Program-made: the position numbers and the translations under genes
Notes under the pieces: generated by a model
The model's database searches: none
What the model saw: the letters and a program-made list of their open reading frames with translations, nothing else
What the model was told of the DNA's origin: nothing
Part shown: piece after piece, positions 26,197 to 62,007 of the stretch
Layout: each line of letters begins with the position of its first letter
Position numbering within the stretch: the stretch's first letter is position 1
Source of the DNA: Methanolobus chelungpuianus
GTDB taxonomy: Archaea > Halobacteriota > Methanosarcinia > Methanosarcinales > Methanosarcinaceae
DNA length: 64,000 bases
Direction of reading: 5' to 3'
Assembly (NCBI RefSeq): GCF_024500045.1
Contig: NZ_JTEO01000010.1
Coordinates: 1-64,000 of the forward strand

Positions 26197-28770
26197 TTAC
26201 TTTGAGAATATTTCCTTCGTCCCGCCCGCTATGAGCAGCGCCACGTCCTTGAGCACGAACATCTGCTTGAAACCTTTTGGCAAGGCTATATACCTGGGCT
26301 CCCAGACGGGGTTGAACTTCTCTTTATAGGCGCGCAGCCCCTTGAAATTGTAGAAATATTCCCCGTGAGTGAATATAGTTGCCCCGATCTTGTTCCAGAG
26401 GGGTGCCAGAGTCCTGTTCTCCAGGCCGGACAGCGGCGACATGCCAAGGGAGAAGTACCTGTAGCCGTTCTCCTTGCCCCAGAGCATCAGCTTCACGAAG
26501 AGATATTCCATCGTTGTGTTTGATATTCCGGGGTCGAAGCGCATAAGGTCAATGGCGAGCTCTTCTTTTTCAGCTCCGATCCATATATTTGCAAAAGCTG
26601 CTATCTGCTCTCCCTTTTTTACAACTGCTAGAGGGAAATGACTCAGGTATCCTATATCGAAGGAACCCATAGAGAAGCCTTTTTCCTTGGTGTTTTTAGT
26701 CTCCAGCCAGGCATCAGATATGCTTTTCAGCTCACCCTCATGCTTTGCCACATCTTCTGGCTGAATTATCTCAAAGTGGTAGCCTTCCTTCTCCTCCATT
26801 CGCTTCACAGAATAGCGAAAATCCTTTCCTGCACTCCCTTCGAGGGAAAAGGATGAGAGCGGGACCTTGCCTTCCTCTCCTATCTTAATAAGGGTCAGGC
26901 CAATGTCCAGATAATATGGAATGAACTTTTCACTGATCTCATAGAAAACGGTCCATCCCTGATGCAGGTTTGCCATTTCATGGAAATCCCATATAAGCTC
27001 CTTCATGCGCTCACATTTCCCAATAGGATCGCCCATACATATCCAGCTCTTGCCTGAAACTCCGTACATGAGGAATGCACTCCCGGGCTCGTTGAACATC
27101 AGGTACTTGTCCTTCAGCAGTGCCAGGTAGCCGTTTGTATCCTTGCTGTCTTGAGATATCGCTTTTGCTCTGGCCATTTCGTCTTCATCCGGTAGTTCAA
27201 GGCTCTTGCTGGAGCCACCCAGCAGTTTCATGAGTCCTATTACAGACAGTATGAAAAGGGCGGCCACAACTGATCTCAGGAATCTTGGCACATGCAGGTC
27301 GGTGCCGAACTGCCACAAAAGGCTTTGTGAATATTCGATATGTTCGTGCGCAAAGAGCCCGATCCAGATAAAACTGATGACCACCACGGCTATCGCAATG
27401 ATATTGTCGCTGCTAAAGGACTGGTCCAGAAGGGACGATTTCCTGTAGAAGTATTTCCTGTTAGGCAGCAACAGCAGGAAAATAATGAACAGGATAATGG
27501 ACTCGGTATAATCGAAGCCTTTAAGGATCGAAAGTATGCTTCCCAGGAGAAGTATCGAGACCGATAGCAGGTAAGCACCGTCAACTCTCTTCCAGAGCCC
27601 GTTGGCAAGTATCAGGAGCATGACGCCTATAATGCTGCTCAGGAGACTTGACCACTCCACTAGCGACAGGGGAATTATCCTTGTAAGGATGCGGATACTT
27701 TCTATCTGGGGAGGGAGGGCCTCAGAAAAGAGCAGTATTACTCCTGCAAAGAAGACGAGCACGGAAAATACCTGGGGAGTGAAAGCCGATAGTTTCAGCG
27801 TCTTCTTATGCAGCCTTATCAGGACCTTTTTCCTCGCATTGAACTCAGTATATGAGAGGATAGCAATTCCGACAAGCAGCGGAGTAAGATAGTATACTGC
27901 CCTGAACACTAGAAGCGATACAATGACATCTGATACTCCTGCATAAGGGGCAAGGGTGAAGAGCATGATAGCCTCAAATACACCGATGCCTCCAGGCACA
28001 GTACTTGCATAGGCAACTGTCTGCGCCACAAGGAACATTGCAAGCAGATATGTGAAAGAGACCTCCCCATACTGGGAGAGAAGGAAATAGAGTGCGCTTC
28101 CTGCAAAGATGGAATCAAGAGATGATATAAGTATCTGGAGCAGTGCAGTCCTGATATCCGGGAACTTCACTTCCTCCCCCTTTATGACAAAGACCTTCTT
28201 CTTCAGGCAAAGAGCAAGATAAAAAGACAGTGCTACTAGCAGGCTGCCTCCAAGTATCTTCAAGAGGAGAGGACTTAGGAAAGGGGCAGAGGGAAGACCT
28301 GCCGGATAGAAGGCAAGCAGCAATCCCCCAACAAAGCATATGCCGGCCCAGAAGGTGATACTGCAGAAAGTTATGACCTTCCCGATCTGTATCGCTGTAA
28401 GCCCATAGGCCGAGTATGACCTGTAGCGGAGATAGCCTCCTGTGGAAAGATGAAAACCGATATTATTACTTATAGATGTGCTCGTGAAAGAGGATTTTGC
28501 GATTTCCCTGTAGGAGACCGACTGTCCTATGTAGCGCATTGCCAGGAAATCATAGCCCATCAATGCCATATAGCTCAGGAAAGTGAATAAAAGTGCCAGC
28601 AGTATGCTCCCGGATGCAAGTTCTGTAAAAACAGATGGCACTTCCTGCAGGTGCACCAATTGCAACTGACTGCTAAGGAAAGCCAGTGAAAGCGCAAAAA
28701 TGGCTATCGGTACGAGATAACTGGCTGCTTTTTGTAGCTCGAGGTTCCTGAAATTGTTTTTCTTTAGCAA
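26197..28770 (-). CDS. mprF: MprF-like bifunctional lysylphosphatidylglycerol synthase/flippase
   Basis: An 857-residue membrane enzyme. The N-terminal half has about 12-14 hydrophobic helices of the UPF0104/flippase type (residues about 15-525). The C-terminal half is a soluble DUF2156/GNAT-like aminoacyl-transferase domain (about 545-850) with FLMYGVSGKSWICMGDP, IDLMRFDP and YFSLGMSPLSG motifs. In bacteria MprF transfers Lys from Lys-tRNA to phosphatidylglycerol and flips it, giving resistance to cationic peptides. The archaeal lipid acceptor is not known. The start is a TTG preceded by AGGGG at normal spacing. The next gene upstream is a MATE transporter on the same strand. Confidence 0.87.
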   Translation of the reverse strand: MLKKNNFRNLELQKAASYLVPIAIFALSLAFLSSQLQLVHLQEVPSVFTELASGSILLALLFTFLSYMALMGYDFLAMRYIGQSVSYREIAKSSFTSTSISNNIGFHLSTGGYLRYRSYSAYGLTAIQIGKVITFCSITFWAGICFVGGLLLAFYPAGLPSAPFLSPLLLKILGGSLLVALSFYLALCLKKKVFVIKGEEVKFPDIRTALLQILISSLDSIFAGSALYFLLSQYGEVSFTYLLAMFLVAQTVAYASTVPGGIGVFEAIMLFTLAPYAGVSDVIVSLLVFRAVYYLTPLLVGIAILSYTEFNARKKVLIRLHKKTLKLSAFTPQVFSVLVFFAGVILLFSEALPPQIESIRILTRIIPLSLVEWSSLLSSIIGVMLLILANGLWKRVDGAYLLSVSILLLGSILSILKGFDYTESIILFIIFLLLLPNRKYFYRKSSLLDQSFSSDNIIAIAVVVISFIWIGLFAHEHIEYSQSLLWQFGTDLHVPRFLRSVVAALFILSVIGLMKLLGGSSKSLELPDEDEMARAKAISQDSKDTNGYLALLKDKYLMFNEPGSAFLMYGVSGKSWICMGDPIGKCERMKELIWDFHEMANLHQGWTVFYEISEKFIPYYLDIGLTLIKIGEEGKVPLSSFSLEGSAGKDFRYSVKRMEEKEGYHFEIIQPEDVAKHEGELKSISDAWLETKNTKEKGFSMGSFDIGYLSHFPLAVVKKGEQIAAFANIWIGAEKEELAIDLMRFDPGISNTTMEYLFVKLMLWGKENGYRYFSLGMSPLSGLENRTLAPLWNKIGATIFTHGEYFYNFKGLRAYKEKFNPVWEPRYIALPKGFKQMFVLKDVALLIAGGTKEIFSK

Positions 28771-51150: not shown

Positions 51151-52611
51151 TTAGTTTCCTGCAACCATTTTGTCTATTTTCTTAACGATAGCCTTCATAT
51201 CCTTGAGGATATCAGCATCTATAGGCTTGACCTGATGGTTCTGCAGTATGTCTGTTACTTTGTCATGCGCCGCACTTGCCAGATCCTTTGAACCCGCTCT
51301 CTGCCAGTCCCCGATCATCTGCCTGTTAATTACAGAGGGATGGGAGGGGAGACTGATGTTCTTCAGTGTCGTCTTGTGCGCAAGGAAGTGGCCGCCAAAT
51401 CCTGTATCCCTGATAGCCTTGTAGGCAAGTGTGTCTTCTGTCACAGGGACACCGTCCCTGGATTTCATTATCATACCTATGAAATCATTGTCCATCACAA
51501 GCTGTTCAAGCGAAAAGGTCATACCGAGCTCAAGCATACCTGCACCATATATCACACTGGCACCTGCATATGCGGGAATAAGGCCGGTAATGGTTTTCTC
51601 ATGTCCAGCCTGGGCATCAGGTAGCTTCGAGTCTGCCTACGAGCCTGCTACAATGCAAGGCAGACCATAATACTGTGCCAGCTTTGCAACCCCTGCGCTT
51701 ATCATTGCAAGTTCTGGAGAACCTACAGGGGCTGTACCGCCTTTTATGTCAAATGCAGTTGTGGAACTGCCATATTGAGTGGGATGCCCAGGTTTGAAAA
51801 GTTGGGTCAAAACCACACCGGCAAGCACTTCGGCATTATGGGTCACAAGTGTTCCTGCTATGTGTACTGGAGATGATGCCGCACTCATAGCCATGCTCAG
51901 AACCATCATTGGTATACCATACTTCGTAGCCTGGAGCGCCATCTCACATATAGCATAGTCCAGTTCCAGAGGACTTGTTGGACAAGAACCGACTGTAAGC
52001 AGTGGCTTTTTCACGGCCTCTTCCTCATCTCCACCATAGACAGCCTTGACTAATTCAAAGTAATATGGCATTTTCTCGGGCTCAGGGTCTACCATAATAT
52101 GTTTTGAACAATTCTCCATAACTGCCAGCACTTCATGCATGGTCCTGGAGACCGGCTGGGTGGCTATATCTATTGCAGAGACAGGAGAGCAAAGATAACT
52201 TATATTAGGTGCCCAGTCCACAACTTTAGAGATATTTGCAAGATCCTGTAGAGTGCTGTCCCTTACATGATAATCATTAGGTCCTCTATAATCAGCCACT
52301 TTGGTTCCGATACCAAAATTAGTCCATCTTACTTCTTTTCCGTCGCTTGTCAGAGTAGCATTATATTTTTCGTCACGGCCATAAATAGTGTATGATGAAG
52401 GAGCTGTTTTTATTGCTTTCATCACAAGTTCTTCCGGGAACCTGACAACTCTTGTCTCTTCGTTCACGTCACAGCCATTTTCCTTGAGAACTTTCCTCGC
52501 ATAGTCGTGCGAAATCCTAATTCCTGGATCAGCCAGCACTTTAAGTGTTGTCTGATGAATGGCTTCAATGTCCTCTTTGTCGAAGAGTTCGAATTTAATT
52601 CCATTAGTCAA
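51151..52611 (-). CDS. mttB: trimethylamine methyltransferase MttB (pyrrolysine protein, amber read-through)
   Basis: A 486-residue TMA:corrinoid methyltransferase, displayed as two open frames because of an in-frame TAG at 51637-51639. The frame stays open on both sides (27 codons link the TAG to the second displayed segment). The TAG is codon 325, matching the pyrrolysine position known in this family (near 334), in a context of CIVAGS-Pyl-ADSKLPDAQ. The TTG start has GAGGTG upstream, shorter than Methanosarcina MttB. N-terminal KEDIEAIHQTTLKVLADPGI and later MVDPEPEK are family-like. Expression needs pyrrolysyl-tRNA, encoded outside this window. Its corrinoid partner is mttC downstream. 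Confidence 0.95.
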
Positions 52612-55610: not shown

Positions 55611-56996
55611 TTACCTAAGCAAGTCGACACTAGGAATCTTGATGTCGAGCAGTTCAGCAATCTTTGCTTTAGCCTTGAGGCCCTTTGGCTGACCAGGGAC
55701 AGCATTGATTGTTCCAATGCCAAGTTCCTCCCTGATTTCTTTCATTGCATATTCGTCTGAAAGCGTGAATACATCCGTTCCAAGCTTCTTGGCTACGTAT
55801 TCTTTTGCTTCCTTCAGGCGCATACCTTTGAGCTGCATCCTCATTACAAGGTCACCAGCAGTTCTTATTCCGTGCATTCCGACAGACATCTCATTGGTTA
55901 TGAGGAAACCCACTGGGTCTCCAAGCCCGCACTATATACCATCAGCACGGCCAACTTCTACAAGGGCCTTTGCTGCTCTGGAAACCGCATCGATAGGTGG
56001 TATCTCTACCATTGGTGCACCACATACACCCATACCGAGGTTGGGGTGTATTGGAATATTTGACTGTTTGGAGCACTCCTTCATGACAGCCACTGTCTTT
56101 GCTACGTTCCATGCGACAGATTTCTTGGTGCTGGTATTCACAACAGGACCACAAATGCTTGCTCCGGCCTTTTCTGTAACCTTTACCTGATCGTGAGGCA
56201 TCATTCCGGCAAGTATTTTACCATCATACTCAAGTTCTCCGTGCATACCTAGAACAAAATGGTTTGCCATGTTAATTGCCACTCCCATATCAGTTTCTTC
56301 TTTTATTTTCTCAGTTGCCTTAAGCACAGCAAGAAACTCCGCATCTCCAGCGGCTGCAGTTGTATCGATGTTAAGGGCATCTGCTCCAACCGTTGCCGCA
56401 TTTCTAGCTACAAAAGTGATGTCTTTGATTGAACTTGGGACTATATTCTCGTAGGTTTGTCTTGCTTCCTCTATTTTCCCAGCTGCCATGAGGTCACCAC
56501 AATTCTCGAAAGGACCATCAGGTTTGTAGTATGCACCGAAGTTTGGCATAACGATATAAAAGAGCGGGTTGATGGAGTTCATCAATAGTGATTCTATTTC
56601 CTGCTGGATCTGCATTGCTGAAACGCTTTGCCCTTTTGCATTTCCTCCACGGAACGCATTCTGGACACAATCAAGACCAGTAACCCTTTCTGCTATCATA
56701 TTTGCTGTTACAGTGTCTGCAGGAACTCCCACACCACCATATTCGCTAAAGTTCATTATGATGGTATCAGGTGCTACATCTGTGCTCATAACAATAAGAT
56801 CCTCAGGACTGACACTTACAACTCTTTCAGGAGTAACAAATATGTCCAGAAGATGGTCAAGTTCATCATCAGTAAGGCCGGGCACCTTTCCTTTGGTTGC
56901 ACCGTTGTTGGCGCCATCCTCGATTTCAACTCTCAGCTCTTCACGTGTCATTTCAACACGCCTGCCGTCACCCATTCTAGTATAGATCTTTGACAT
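55611..56996 (-). CDS. mtbB: dimethylamine methyltransferase MtbB (pyrrolysine protein, amber read-through)
   Basis: A 461-residue DMA:corrinoid methyltransferase, split by an in-frame TAG at 55932-55934 whose frame stays open into the downstream segment. The amber is codon 355, almost the family's position (about 356), in a context of VGRADGI-Pyl-CGLGDPV. The N-terminus RMGDGRRVEMTREELRVEIEDGANNG and the VGADALNIDTTAAAGDAEFLAVLKATEKI barrel segment are typical of MtbB. ATG at 56996 with GAGAGGT upstream. Its corrinoid protein, mtbC, is the gene just before it in the operon. Confidence 0.95.
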
Positions 56997-58401: not shown

Positions 58402-58426
58402 CAACACTCTGGGTTATTTGATTAAA

Positions 58427-59206
58427 ATGCAGGCATCACCGATAAATTTCGTCTGGCTCTCAGAAAAAAGGAGAAGCCTTTTGTACTATTTACAAAACGG
58501 TCCAAAGGACATAGAGGAGATAAAGTCACATTTTGGTGTTACTTCCAGACTAATAGTCCCCGAAATAAAGAAGATGGTAAAAGCCGGAATCATGATCGAA
58601 ACTGATGGATTTTACAAGTTGTCCAATATAGGTAAACTTAATCTTGAGAGCCTAGAGGATATCATTAATACAGCAGAACTTATCGAGATAGACCCGGATT
58701 ACTGGGAAAACAGCGATCTTACAGCAATACCTGTCAATCTTTACCAGAGGATTGGCAAGTTGAAGAATAGTACAATTTACAATTATAATCTTGACGACAT
58801 ATGTGATTGCCCTGTACAATTAAGAGAAGGCATAGGTGCATCTAAAGATGTACTTACGTTTATGCCATTTTTACCACCCCTGCAACCTTCTTTGTACTTA
58901 GGACCCATGAGTAAAGGAACACATGTAACAATGATTTTGACAAAGTCAATAATGGAAAAAATGAAAAGGGAATTCCCTTTGGAATATGAAAAGCACCTGA
59001 GATCACCAAATTGTCACTTATATCTCTGTGATGAAGATATATTAAGACCAATGATAGTTGTGACGGATAATTTTTTACTATTGGGATTCTTCAAGAAGAA
59101 TGGGGTATATGGGAACAAAGAACTGATGAGCTATGATAAGAGAGCTCTCGAGTGGGGTAGAGAGCTGTGCCGCCACTACATAAGCATCTCAGAGCCTGTC
59201 AAGTAG
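58427..59206 (+). CDS. winged-helix regulator with FilR1/Msr-type domain (methanogenesis regulator family)
   Basis: A 259-residue transcription factor. The N-terminal winged helix (FVWLSEKRRSLLYYLQNGPKDIEEIKSHFGVTSRLIVPEIKKMVKAGIMIETDGFYKLSNIGKL, residues 5-70) precedes a middle and C-terminal ligand-like domain with DYWENSDLTAIPVNLYQRIGKL near 95 and KSIMEKM and GREL near the end. This arrangement matches the Msr (methyltransferase-specific) regulators of Methanosarcina. The ATG at 58427 is preferred over a TTG at 58418. It diverges from the mtb/mtt operon, so that operon is the likely target. A paralogue follows by 21 bases. Confidence 0.85.
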   Translation: MQASPINFVWLSEKRRSLLYYLQNGPKDIEEIKSHFGVTSRLIVPEIKKMVKAGIMIETDGFYKLSNIGKLNLESLEDIINTAELIEIDPDYWENSDLTAIPVNLYQRIGKLKNSTIYNYNLDDICDCPVQLREGIGASKDVLTFMPFLPPLQPSLYLGPMSKGTHVTMILTKSIMEKMKREFPLEYEKHLRSPNCHLYLCDEDILRPMIVVTDNFLLLGFFKKNGVYGNKELMSYDKRALEWGRELCRHYISISEPVK

Positions 59207-59227: not shown

Positions 59228-60007
59228 ATGAGATCGTCTATCATTGATACAATAATGCTATCTGAAAAAAGAAGAGACATCATGCTTTTGTTAGCCGGTG
59301 AATCAAAAAGTCGTGGGGAAATAGCCGAATCCCTTGATATGAACTGGAACTTACTGAAGCAGCCAGTTAAGGAACTGAAGGATGCTGGATTGATTTTCCA
59401 GGACGATGACAACTACAGATTATCCAACAACGGGCGGCTCATGGTGAATGCTCTGATGCCTCTGCTGTCAATGGTAAACACCTTTTCATATGATAGCGAC
59501 TACTGGGTAAGCCGGGATCTGCAGGCTGTGCCCCGATTTATGGCAAAGAGGATGGGAGAACTTGAAAATTCTACTCTGCTTGCGCTTTCGCTGGACTACA
59601 TGTTCGAGCCTCTCAAGCAGTTTATAGAAAATATGGAACCACCTGCTTATTTGCATATAGTCCTGTCCTTGTTTGATCCGGAAGCCCCTGCACTCCTTGC
59701 GGAACTTGCAGGGAAAGGTATTGAGATCTCAGTTGTGTTCGAGCAACATATATATGAGAAAATGAACGAGGGTTTTGGAGAAGAGCTGAAAAAGATTAGC
59801 GAGAACAAAAATGTTAGCTTTTGTCAGTTAGAGAACGAAATGAGACCGCCTGAGATAATCTTCACAGACAAAGAAATGGCAATCATATTCTTCAACCAGA
59901 ATGGTAAATATGATTATAGGGAACTGCGCAGTTCTGATGCTGCGGCCATAAAATGGGGAAATGATCTCTTTAATTGCTATAAAGACATTTCAATCTTTGC
60001 TAAGTAG
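59228..60007 (+). CDS. winged-helix regulator, second FilR1/Msr-type paralogue
   Basis: A 259-residue paralogue of the preceding protein with the same plan. The winged helix is MLSEKRRDIMLLLAGESKSRGEIAESLDMNWNLLKQPVKELKDAGLIFQDDDNYRLSNNGRL, then DYWVSRDLQAVPRFMAKRMGELENSTLL. The C-terminal domain has IHIVLSLFDPEAPALLAEL and ends RELRSSDAAAIKWGNDLFNCYKDI. It is 21 bases after the first copy, so the two are co-transcribed. In the known regulators pairs may act together, with one activating one methyltransferase set. Which amine each one senses cannot be read. Confidence 0.85.
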   Translation: MRSSIIDTIMLSEKRRDIMLLLAGESKSRGEIAESLDMNWNLLKQPVKELKDAGLIFQDDDNYRLSNNGRLMVNALMPLLSMVNTFSYDSDYWVSRDLQAVPRFMAKRMGELENSTLLALSLDYMFEPLKQFIENMEPPAYLHIVLSLFDPEAPALLAELAGKGIEISVVFEQHIYEKMNEGFGEELKKISENKNVSFCQLENEMRPPEIIFTDKEMAIIFFNQNGKYDYRELRSSDAAAIKWGNDLFNCYKDISIFAK

Positions 60008-60490: not shown

Positions 60491-61300
60491 TCACACCAGT
60501 GATTCCAAGAGCGGTCGGATCTGGCTAACCGGGGCCGAATCCTTCAGATAGTATCCAAACAGGTCCCTTCCCCATTCAGCAGCAAGCGGGTTGGAGCACA
60601 GGATGCCTTTGCTGTCATATTCTCCATTGCTCTTCAGCAGATGAAGCAGGAGATAGTACTCATTATACATGAAATCCTGAAAAGCGAGTTCCTTTGGATA
60701 AACATAGAAATGAACAGATCTGTTCTTAACAAGACCTTCCAGATTTTTTGAGTAAAAGGTCCCTGCCTTATCGAGCATGGCCCGGGAGAGGATAAGGTAT
60801 ATGGCAACATTCTTTTGAGCAAGGCCGGACAATGATGCCAGGTACTTTGGATCAAAAAGCCGGGTGGCTGCAAAAAGCGAACCAGACATGAAGGAAGTCT
60901 GAACGATCTCCCTGTTAAGCTCATATGCATCTGAAAGAGGAGTATCGATTACCTTGCAGTTCCCAAGCTCATTAATTCTTCCTATCAGTCGATACGGGAT
61001 AAAATCAAGGTTATGGGTCCCCCAATAGTCAATGCCACTGTCCAGGACATCTGCAGTGCTTAACAAAGAGATCATCTTGCTGACCATTAATTGTCCTATG
61101 GTCGTTAATTCCCACATGTCCCCAAACCGGGTAACAAGAAAACTATCTTCCAGGACACTCAGATGCGGAAGTAAAGCCTGTCTGCCTGTTTCAAGCGACT
61201 CGAGGATAAATTCCGTCTCCTGAGGTCCGCTCTTCAGGAAAAGAAGTATCTTCTTCCTCTCCTCGCATGAGAATATAATATCGATAAGTTGCTCACTCAC
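60491..61300 (-). CDS. winged-helix regulator, third FilR1/Msr-type paralogue
   Basis: About 269 residues and on the opposite strand from the first two. The winged helix is SEQLIDIIFSCEERKKILLFLKSGPQETEFILESLETGRQALLPHLSVLEDSFLVTRFGDMWELTTIGQL, then DYWGTHNLDFIPYRLIGRINEL, LFDPKYLASLSGLAQKNVAIYLIL and RDLFGYYL. The start is uncertain: the frame opens at a TTG (61345), but the GGGGA before the GTG at 61300 and the family N-terminus favour 61300. A TATA-like TTTTAAGTATC near 61365 fits. Its target may be another methyltransferase set outside the window. Confidence 0.82.
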   Translation of the reverse strand: MSEQLIDIIFSCEERKKILLFLKSGPQETEFILESLETGRQALLPHLSVLEDSFLVTRFGDMWELTTIGQLMVSKMISLLSTADVLDSGIDYWGTHNLDFIPYRLIGRINELGNCKVIDTPLSDAYELNREIVQTSFMSGSLFAATRLFDPKYLASLSGLAQKNVAIYLILSRAMLDKAGTFYSKNLEGLVKNRSVHFYVYPKELAFQDFMYNEYYLLLHLLKSNGEYDSKGILCSNPLAAEWGRDLFGYYLKDSAPVSQIRPLLESLV

Positions 61301-61562
61301 TATCAGCACGTTTCCCCAAAACTCATCATCCCCATCCCAAATCAAGTATGTGGGCGCAGATACTTAAAACGAGCAGAAGTTCTGATAATGAAGGCAGTTA
61401 AAGTTCACCAAATGTTAAATGAAGCATCCTTTACCCTGCTCAAAGAGCAGTAAATACCTTATTCCGATAGTTGAGTTTCAAACGGATTAATACTGATCAA
61501 AATGTGATGAAGTATAGAAACGTAACTAAAATGTGAGAAACTTAATGAAAATCTGAAAGGTA

Positions 61563-61692
61563 GACCGAGGCACCCTCTGCCACCACGCTTCAGGTGCCTC
61601 TTCCCTTCGGTCCGAAACATTCCCCAATGTCTCAGTAAATACGTCTGTTTACGTCTGTTGATAACCCGCGCGTTACTCCTCGCGCCCACAAT
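61563..61692 (-). ncRNA. candidate structured RNA, family unknown
   Basis: A GC-richer island inside an AT-rich intergenic region. On the minus strand it folds into four successive hairpins by simple pairing: GCGCG/CGCGC (61668-61685), GTAAA/TTTAC (61635-61652), ACATT/AATGT with a GGGG loop (61617-61630), and a 12-pair stem GACC+GAGGCACC/GGTGCCTC+GGTC (61563-61612) with an 8-base bulge. ACGTCTGTT is directly repeated at 61641 and 61651. A minus TATA-like GTTTAAGTT lies near 61721 and the 5' end would be near 61692. It is not tRNA, 5S, 7S or RNase P RNA as I know them. The 76-residue frame across it looks coincidental. Confidence 0.4.
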
Positions 61693-62007
61693 TAAATGTA
61701 AGACTTTCTGTTACTTAACTTAAACCCTGCTTAATTTAATGTGTTGCAGTGTTATCAAAAGAGGTATAAGTTTTTAATGTCATTTTAATTTAAAGTGACA
61801 AATTAATTTTTGCCGACTTTACAGAGGCAAAATATTATTTATTATTGGAAATAACTAAAGTCACTCCATATATTCCTTAATCAGCCCCCCGCCTGTTCCT
61901 ACTATCTCTAGAGATTCCTCCCTCAGCAAAACACGTAAGTAATGTGGGCGACCTCCTTTGTAATGGAATGAGTCAAGGCTTGTTTTAAACGATACTGAGT
62001 TGATACA

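Follow-up and report, generated by a model that had tools for sequence, protein, structure and literature searches.

A probable family of structured small RNAs, present in many copies per genome in part of the genus Methanolobus

Introduction

Does the GC-rich island next to a regulator gene in a 64,000-nucleotide stretch of Methanolobus chelungpuianus DNA (the window) encode a structured RNA, and if so, from which strand, in how many copies and with what role? An initial annotation of the window had described four hairpins, including a 12-pair stem, in a GC-richer island of about 130 bases within AT-rich DNA, with a TATA box upstream on the minus strand, and had read them as a candidate structured RNA that matches no known family. 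To our knowledge, few archaeal small RNAs have been defined as families with a structure, a promoter and a distribution.

Results and Discussion

The minus strand of the island and its fold

The GC content is 0.56 at positions 61560-61689, against 0.32 and 0.25 in the flanking 130 bases on either side (61430-61559 and 61690-61819), so that the island is as GC-rich as it had been described. Both strands fold better than any of 200 dinucleotide shuffles, with z of -4.5 for the plus strand and -3.6 for the minus strand; the longer transcript at 61546-61694 stands out less, with z -2.8 and one shuffle among 200 that folds equally well. A stem is indeed present at the place of the 12-pair stem, but it consists of 8+4 pairs with a bulge on the plus strand, and its minus-strand counterpart is a 9-pair hairpin closed by 6 more pairs. 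Three of the four hairpins of the window copy are conserved in position among the aligned copies; the remaining one, near 61641-61654, rests on a private insertion, which is absent from all 10 other aligned copies. With the fold better than shuffles and covariation in relatives (below), the minus strand of 61546-61694 is supported as the one encoding a structured RNA (Table 1).

Table 1. Predicted RNA, its parts and its neighbours in the window
Feature	Position	Strand	Remark
Predicted RNA, about 149 nt	61546..61694	-	ends inferred from promoter position and T-rich stretch; module structure and covariation
Hairpin 0 (GCGCG/CGCGC, loop AGGAGUAA)	61668..61685	-	tentative
Short hairpin	61641..61654	-	insertion private to window copy
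Hairpin 1, loop GGGG closed by UU/AA	61612..61635	-	two-sided changes at 8 of 8 pairs, 67 rows
Hairpin 2 (GAGGCACC/GGUGCCUC)	61567..61600	-	two-sided changes at 7 of 8 pairs, 67 rows
Conserved apical stretch AAGCGUGGUGG of hairpin 2	61580-61590	-	
Outer pairing AAGG/CCUU closing hairpin 2	61555..61608	-	80% of cells paired, two-sided changes at 2 of 4 pairs: weaker
TATA-like promoter element GGGTTTAAGTTAA	61715..61727	-	position conserved in aligned copies
Upstream box TTAAATTAAAATGACATTAAAA, 1 mismatch to TGAAATTNNAAYGNCRTTRAAA	61772..61793	-	genome-wide pattern search
Regulator gene, HTH and FilR1_middle (PF08350)	60491..61345	-	absent beside closest ortholog of window RNA

The covariance models of Rfam 15 gave no match at the locus at the gathering threshold, in agreement with the claim that no known RNA family is involved, and at E<=1 the search of 19 loci returned nothing beyond tRNA, rRNA and isolated matches of low score. 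The only Rfam matches in the window are two tRNAs and two pyrrolysine insertion elements. The latter, on the minus strand at 51540-51639 and 55835-55934 (PYLIS_3 of mttB and PYLIS_2 of mtbB), mark pyrrolysine-read methylamine methyltransferase genes, which share the window with the regulator cluster described below. A listed open reading frame of 76 amino acids (61459-61689, minus strand) was rejected as a small protein gene; it is not conserved, its frame, open in the window, is interrupted by stops in 8 of 11 copies, and gap lengths are mostly not multiples of three.

Covariation among copies

A nucleotide search with positions 61540-61720 gave matches in 10 of 60 relatives, all of the same genus, and at five places in the window's own genome (G000). 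When aligned on the minus strand, the copies have in common hairpin 1 (GGGG), hairpin 2 with AAGCGUGGUGG at its apex, and a flanking promoter-like sequence. The model describes a two-hairpin module, the loop of hairpin 1 being GGGG and that of hairpin 2 AAGCGUGGUGG.

The first model was made from 24 of 31 aligned modules, the other 7 having been shifted by one base by the aligner and left out. The alignment of these 24 rows was produced with MAFFT, independently of the model, and its structure was written on it by hand; two-sided changes were detected at 14 of its 20 pairs, against a shuffled mean of 8.0 (none of 500 shuffles as high) and 2-7 in slid controls. A search of 46 chosen loci with the model gave 74 matches. 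Compensating changes in relatives, on which the initial annotation had staked its reading beforehand, were then found, among 67 distinct sequences, at 17 of the 20 pairs, a count reached by none of 500 shuffles. In this alignment 92.5% of the cells pair, against 39-57% in slid controls; the alignment as a whole leans towards the model, since its rows were fitted to it. Among the 11 closest full-length copies, including that of the window, two-sided changes occur at 7 of 23 pairs (22 of 500 shuffles as high); counted as cells over the same scope, there are 20 two-sided cells against 8.6 after shuffling (0 of 500), and slid controls gave 0-4 pairs. Hairpin 0 is proposed more cautiously than the others, since covariation was sought in these 11 rows and no two-sided changes were found in it. 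The covariation in the 24-row and 67-row alignments rules out chance hairpins, and the copies very probably represent a real RNA family transcribed from the minus strand.

Two forms of the RNA and their distribution

Two forms of the RNA can be distinguished. In copies of the window's type (class II), a GCGC hairpin at the 5' end accompanies a single module. In class I, the 5' hairpin is UGCGGGUCGUGGGG...CCGCA (27 distinct segments), the linker reads GGGAGUGGA, and there is either a single module or a pair spaced by about 110 nt; one two-module unit (L068) folds with z -6.2.

The model matched 13 of the 27 genomes of the genus at E<=0.1, and in 11 of them the best E value was 1.5e-9 or lower. 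The number of matches was 32 in G012, 24 in G026, 23 in G021, 22 in G010, 21 in G000, 17 in G015, 16 in G007, 10 in G023, 7 in G013, 3 in G014, 2 in G003 and 1 each in G017 and G018. Merged into units, these matches correspond to about 19 units in the window's own genome, 18 in G026 (11 of them at 86 bits or more) and 10 in G007. G026 is almost certainly the genome of Methanolobus psychrophilus R15 (see below). Across the order, 17 of 185 genomes gave matches, including four outside the genus (G036, G159, G173 and G180) with weak scores of 21-31 bits. When the GTDB species genomes were scanned with a pattern, 53 stretches came up, 47 of them in Methanolobus records, including M. halotolerans SY-01; the six elsewhere were taken as chance because the model scored them at most 14.4 bits. 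By this comparison of sequences, the family appears restricted to part of the genus Methanolobus.

Weak matches of 26-31 bits at three loci (L042 and L054 in G003, L061 in G036) keep a paired stem with GUGGU-like loops and are possible distant relatives of the family, the one in G036 lying outside the genus. In the open-access full-text literature, no paper was found that describes this RNA as a structured family; it is a previously unnamed one, with many copies per genome in one group of methanogens.

Promoter and upstream box

The TATA box that had been placed upstream on the minus strand corresponds to a TATA-like element that at 61715-61724 reads TTTAAGTTAA and is not canonical. Most class I copies have GGTTATATAA or GGTTAAATAA at the same position. 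Further up than this element lies a box that was described as the 22-base pattern TGAAATTNNAAYGNCRTTRAAA and sought genome-wide with up to 2 mismatches. G000 contains 12 matches, of which 10, including that of the window copy, lie upstream of the RNA on the same strand. In G026, six of nine matches are located upstream of the RNA, two precede apparent degraded remnants of promoter or RNA, and one precedes an apparent coding sequence. The reversed pattern, used as a control, gave no match in either genome. When the best match with up to 4 mismatches was taken, the box was present at 20 of 36 units, against 0.9% of shuffles, a count that is partly circular since the pattern was written after viewing these copies. 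The remaining 16 units are without a recognisable box, including two-module units beside regulators (L081, L082 and L087). At two places in G026 (L158, C1:2928053, and L168, C1:2862534) an intact box and promoter are followed by an apparently degraded or missing RNA; these are possibly remnants or new variants of the RNA.

Genes for FilR1-type regulators near the RNA

The window contains three diverged regulators with FilR1_middle (PF08350) in a row, at 58418-59206 (+), 59228-60007 (+) and 60491-61345 (-). The FilR1 family is expanded in the window's clade, with 39 PF08350 matches in the window's own genome and 6-20 in genomes of the genus that lack the RNA. In G000, 10 of 19 units lie within 1 kb of a PF08350 match (shift mean 0.80, none of 5000 shifts as high) and in G026 10 of 18 (0.42, 2 of 5000), while in G007 the association is weak, 2 of 10 (0.29, 209 of 5000); the shift control also places copies in genic DNA, and placement in intergenic DNA only would raise these expectations somewhat. 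The comparison thus shows a strong excess of RNA copies beside FilR1-type genes in two of the three genomes tested.

The arrangement of RNA and regulator is variable. Among 22 regulator open reading frames within 1 kb of the RNA (from a table of 71 rows, a few of them incomplete), 10 are convergent and downstream, 7 divergent and upstream, and the same-strand cases are 3 downstream and 2 upstream of the RNA; in 6 of the 10 convergent cases, 73-76 nt separate the stop of the regulator gene from the module. At the closest ortholog of the window RNA (L002 in G023), the RNA, the promoter and the box region are kept (81% over 430 nt), and no FilR1 gene was found in its 3.2-kb locus. In G026, the regulator most closely related to that of the window has no RNA nearer than 14.6 kb. 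Two two-module copies in G026, near 2.84 Mb and 3.07 Mb (L081 and L082), have equal scores, the same downstream sequence and a convergent regulator, which suggests a duplication of the RNA together with the regulator.

In a tree of 67 regulators, from which shorter ones were left out, 20 of 21 RNA-adjacent rows fall in one supported branch of 54. Fixed pairs of RNA and regulator were rejected, the adjacent regulators being unclustered on the tree (19 label changes against a shuffled mean of 18.0). Over the 27 genomes, the number of RNA copies correlates with that of FilR1 genes (Spearman 0.73), and genomes with at least 7 RNA copies have 12-57 FilR1 genes against 6-20 in genomes with none. A marker protein, in genomes with a full-length hit, is 73-94% identical to that of the window's own genome in RNA-rich genomes and 64-68% in RNA-less ones. 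The RNA-rich genomes that the marker can place are thus the nearest relatives of the window's own genome; independent co-expansion was therefore rejected, and the correlation may reflect a single event.

Relation to cold-induced small RNAs of M. psychrophilus R15

A study of M. psychrophilus R15 describes nine sRNAs that are highly conserved, have a common upstream 'cold box' and are induced at 8 C compared with 18 C; it counts 195 non-coding starts and places starts 19-22 nt after the TATA element (Li et al. 2015, PMC5378194), a distance that supports the start predicted here for the window RNA. It also describes an internal start at 26,651 in the kinase gene Mpsy_0031, the product of which would keep HisKA and the receiver and lose PAS (PMC5378194). 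Genome G026 is almost certainly that of R15, since its base 26,651 lies in a matching gene, one for a kinase with PAS, GAF, HisKA, HATPase and receiver domains, upstream of the HisKA domain. An Hsp20 gene should lie near gene 75, but 7 open reading frames scanned in a 16-kb stretch of G026, at a guessed position, did not include it.

This genome contains a highly conserved set of intergenic RNAs, namely the 24 matches in 18 units, 11 of them at 86 bits or more, and the box pattern supplies a conserved motif upstream of the promoter, although the published motif may differ. The RNAs described here and those of the R15 study share the genus, a set of mutually conserved intergenic sRNAs and a motif upstream of the promoters. 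They differ in number, nine having been reported (PMC5378194) against 24 module matches or 18 units in G026, and in the available portions of the article (PMC5378194) neither a shared structure nor members in other species nor an association with a regulator is described. On balance, the family of the window's RNA is likely to be that of the cold-induced sRNAs of R15, and the upstream box is probably the 'cold box' of that study. RNAs that had probably come to notice in a single species, and there only as transcripts induced by cold, thus gain a covariance-supported model, a common promoter box and a genomic partner, the FilR1-type regulators. The 'nine conserved cold-induced sRNAs' would thereby become a testable multi-species RNA family and a handle on the control of the cold response in methanogens.

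Proposed mode of action

The whole is best explained, with a probability of roughly 0.7, by a free-standing, cold-induced small RNA gene, the product of which acts in trans through G-rich loops. The minus strand would be transcribed from its own promoter, and transcription would end in the T-rich stretch before the regulator gene. A predicted factor would bind the upstream box and activate the copies jointly at low temperature, in the way reported for the R15 sRNAs. The RNA would then act through repeated, exposed G-rich stretches (UUGGGGAA, AAGCGUGGUGG and GGGAGUGG), and the same site, presented many times to a protein or to the ribosome, would be a likelier mode of action than a long antisense duplex with one target. 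The unpaired stretches that are conserved are in fact G-rich and repeated. Titration of a protein or the ribosome is a possibility that we put somewhat below even odds.

The RNA might instead be a trans-acting antisense RNA with mRNAs as the pairing partners of its conserved loops, perhaps the transcripts of the regulators nearby. The loops are short, conserved and probably exposed, and some convergent regulators end close to the module, at 73-76 nt. Against this stand the duplex energies of four loop and linker probes, which were weaker with the start regions of 35 regulators than with those of 48 other genes, leaving antisense pairing with neighbouring regulator mRNAs unsupported. The complement of the main loop matches the genome G000 at 17 places, 16 of which are the RNA genes themselves, so that a single antisense target reached through the main loop, for which one non-RNA match is left, is unsupported as well. 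Because the complement is nearly exclusive to the RNA genes and the probes do not favour regulators, recognition of the loops by a partner common to the copies, or pairing through short seeds, is preferred to long antisense pairing. Antisense action, for which short seeds of 6-7 nt or targets in 3' untranslated regions may serve, is altogether rather unlikely.

It is improbable that the RNA is a cis-acting leader, similar to a riboswitch or thermosensor, of the FilR1-type gene at 60491-61345. That gene does follow the RNA on the same strand, at a distance of about 245 nt, and the proximity to FilR1 genes in G000 and G026 would agree with such a role. However, a leader is rejected as a general rule since the orientation is mostly convergent or divergent, a same-strand regulator downstream of the RNA being found in only 3 of 22 cases, and since the closest ortholog is without a FilR1 gene nearby; the distance of 14.6 kb noted above for the window regulator's closest relative in G026 points the same way. 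A mobile or repetitive element of the MITE or REP type, with hairpins acting in DNA rather than RNA, would account for the many dispersed copies, tandem modules and restricted clade, but is the least probable reading, given pairing kept by G-U pairs and two-sided changes, a promoter and box kept outside the hairpins, and no terminal inverted repeats in common among the four copies examined.

Returning to the free-standing trans-acting RNA, a wider and decidedly speculative extension, which we consider unlikely, is an archaeal multi-copy RNA regulon of up to about 20 genes per genome, in which one box-binding factor would activate all copies in the cold, tandem G-rich loops would titrate a shared partner, and RNA and FilR1 genes would have expanded together as one network. 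The titrated partner could be an RNA-binding protein, the FilR1-type regulators themselves or the anti-SD region of the ribosome. If so, methylotrophic methanogenesis at low temperature would be under the joint control of the RNA and the regulators, as a single network.

Bacterial RNAs of the CsrB/RsmY type, present in few copies, titrate CsrA through repeated G-rich hairpin loops. The tandem modules with repeated G-rich loops and linkers resemble these RNAs and suggest a possible way of working, but the present RNAs are archaeal and occur in many copies, and their partner is hypothetical, unlike CsrA. sRNA154 and sRNA162 of Methanosarcina mazei, which we take to be archaeal, intergenic and structured RNAs with their own promoters, are similar in these respects; being presumably single-copy RNAs of another genus, they differ from the present RNAs in copy number.

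As to the surroundings of individual copies, six (L004, L005, L008, L009, L018 and L023) are close to tRNA genes, at most a few hundred bases away, the neighbours being tRNA-Arg, -Cys, -Ala, -Ile, -Gly, -Phe and -Val.
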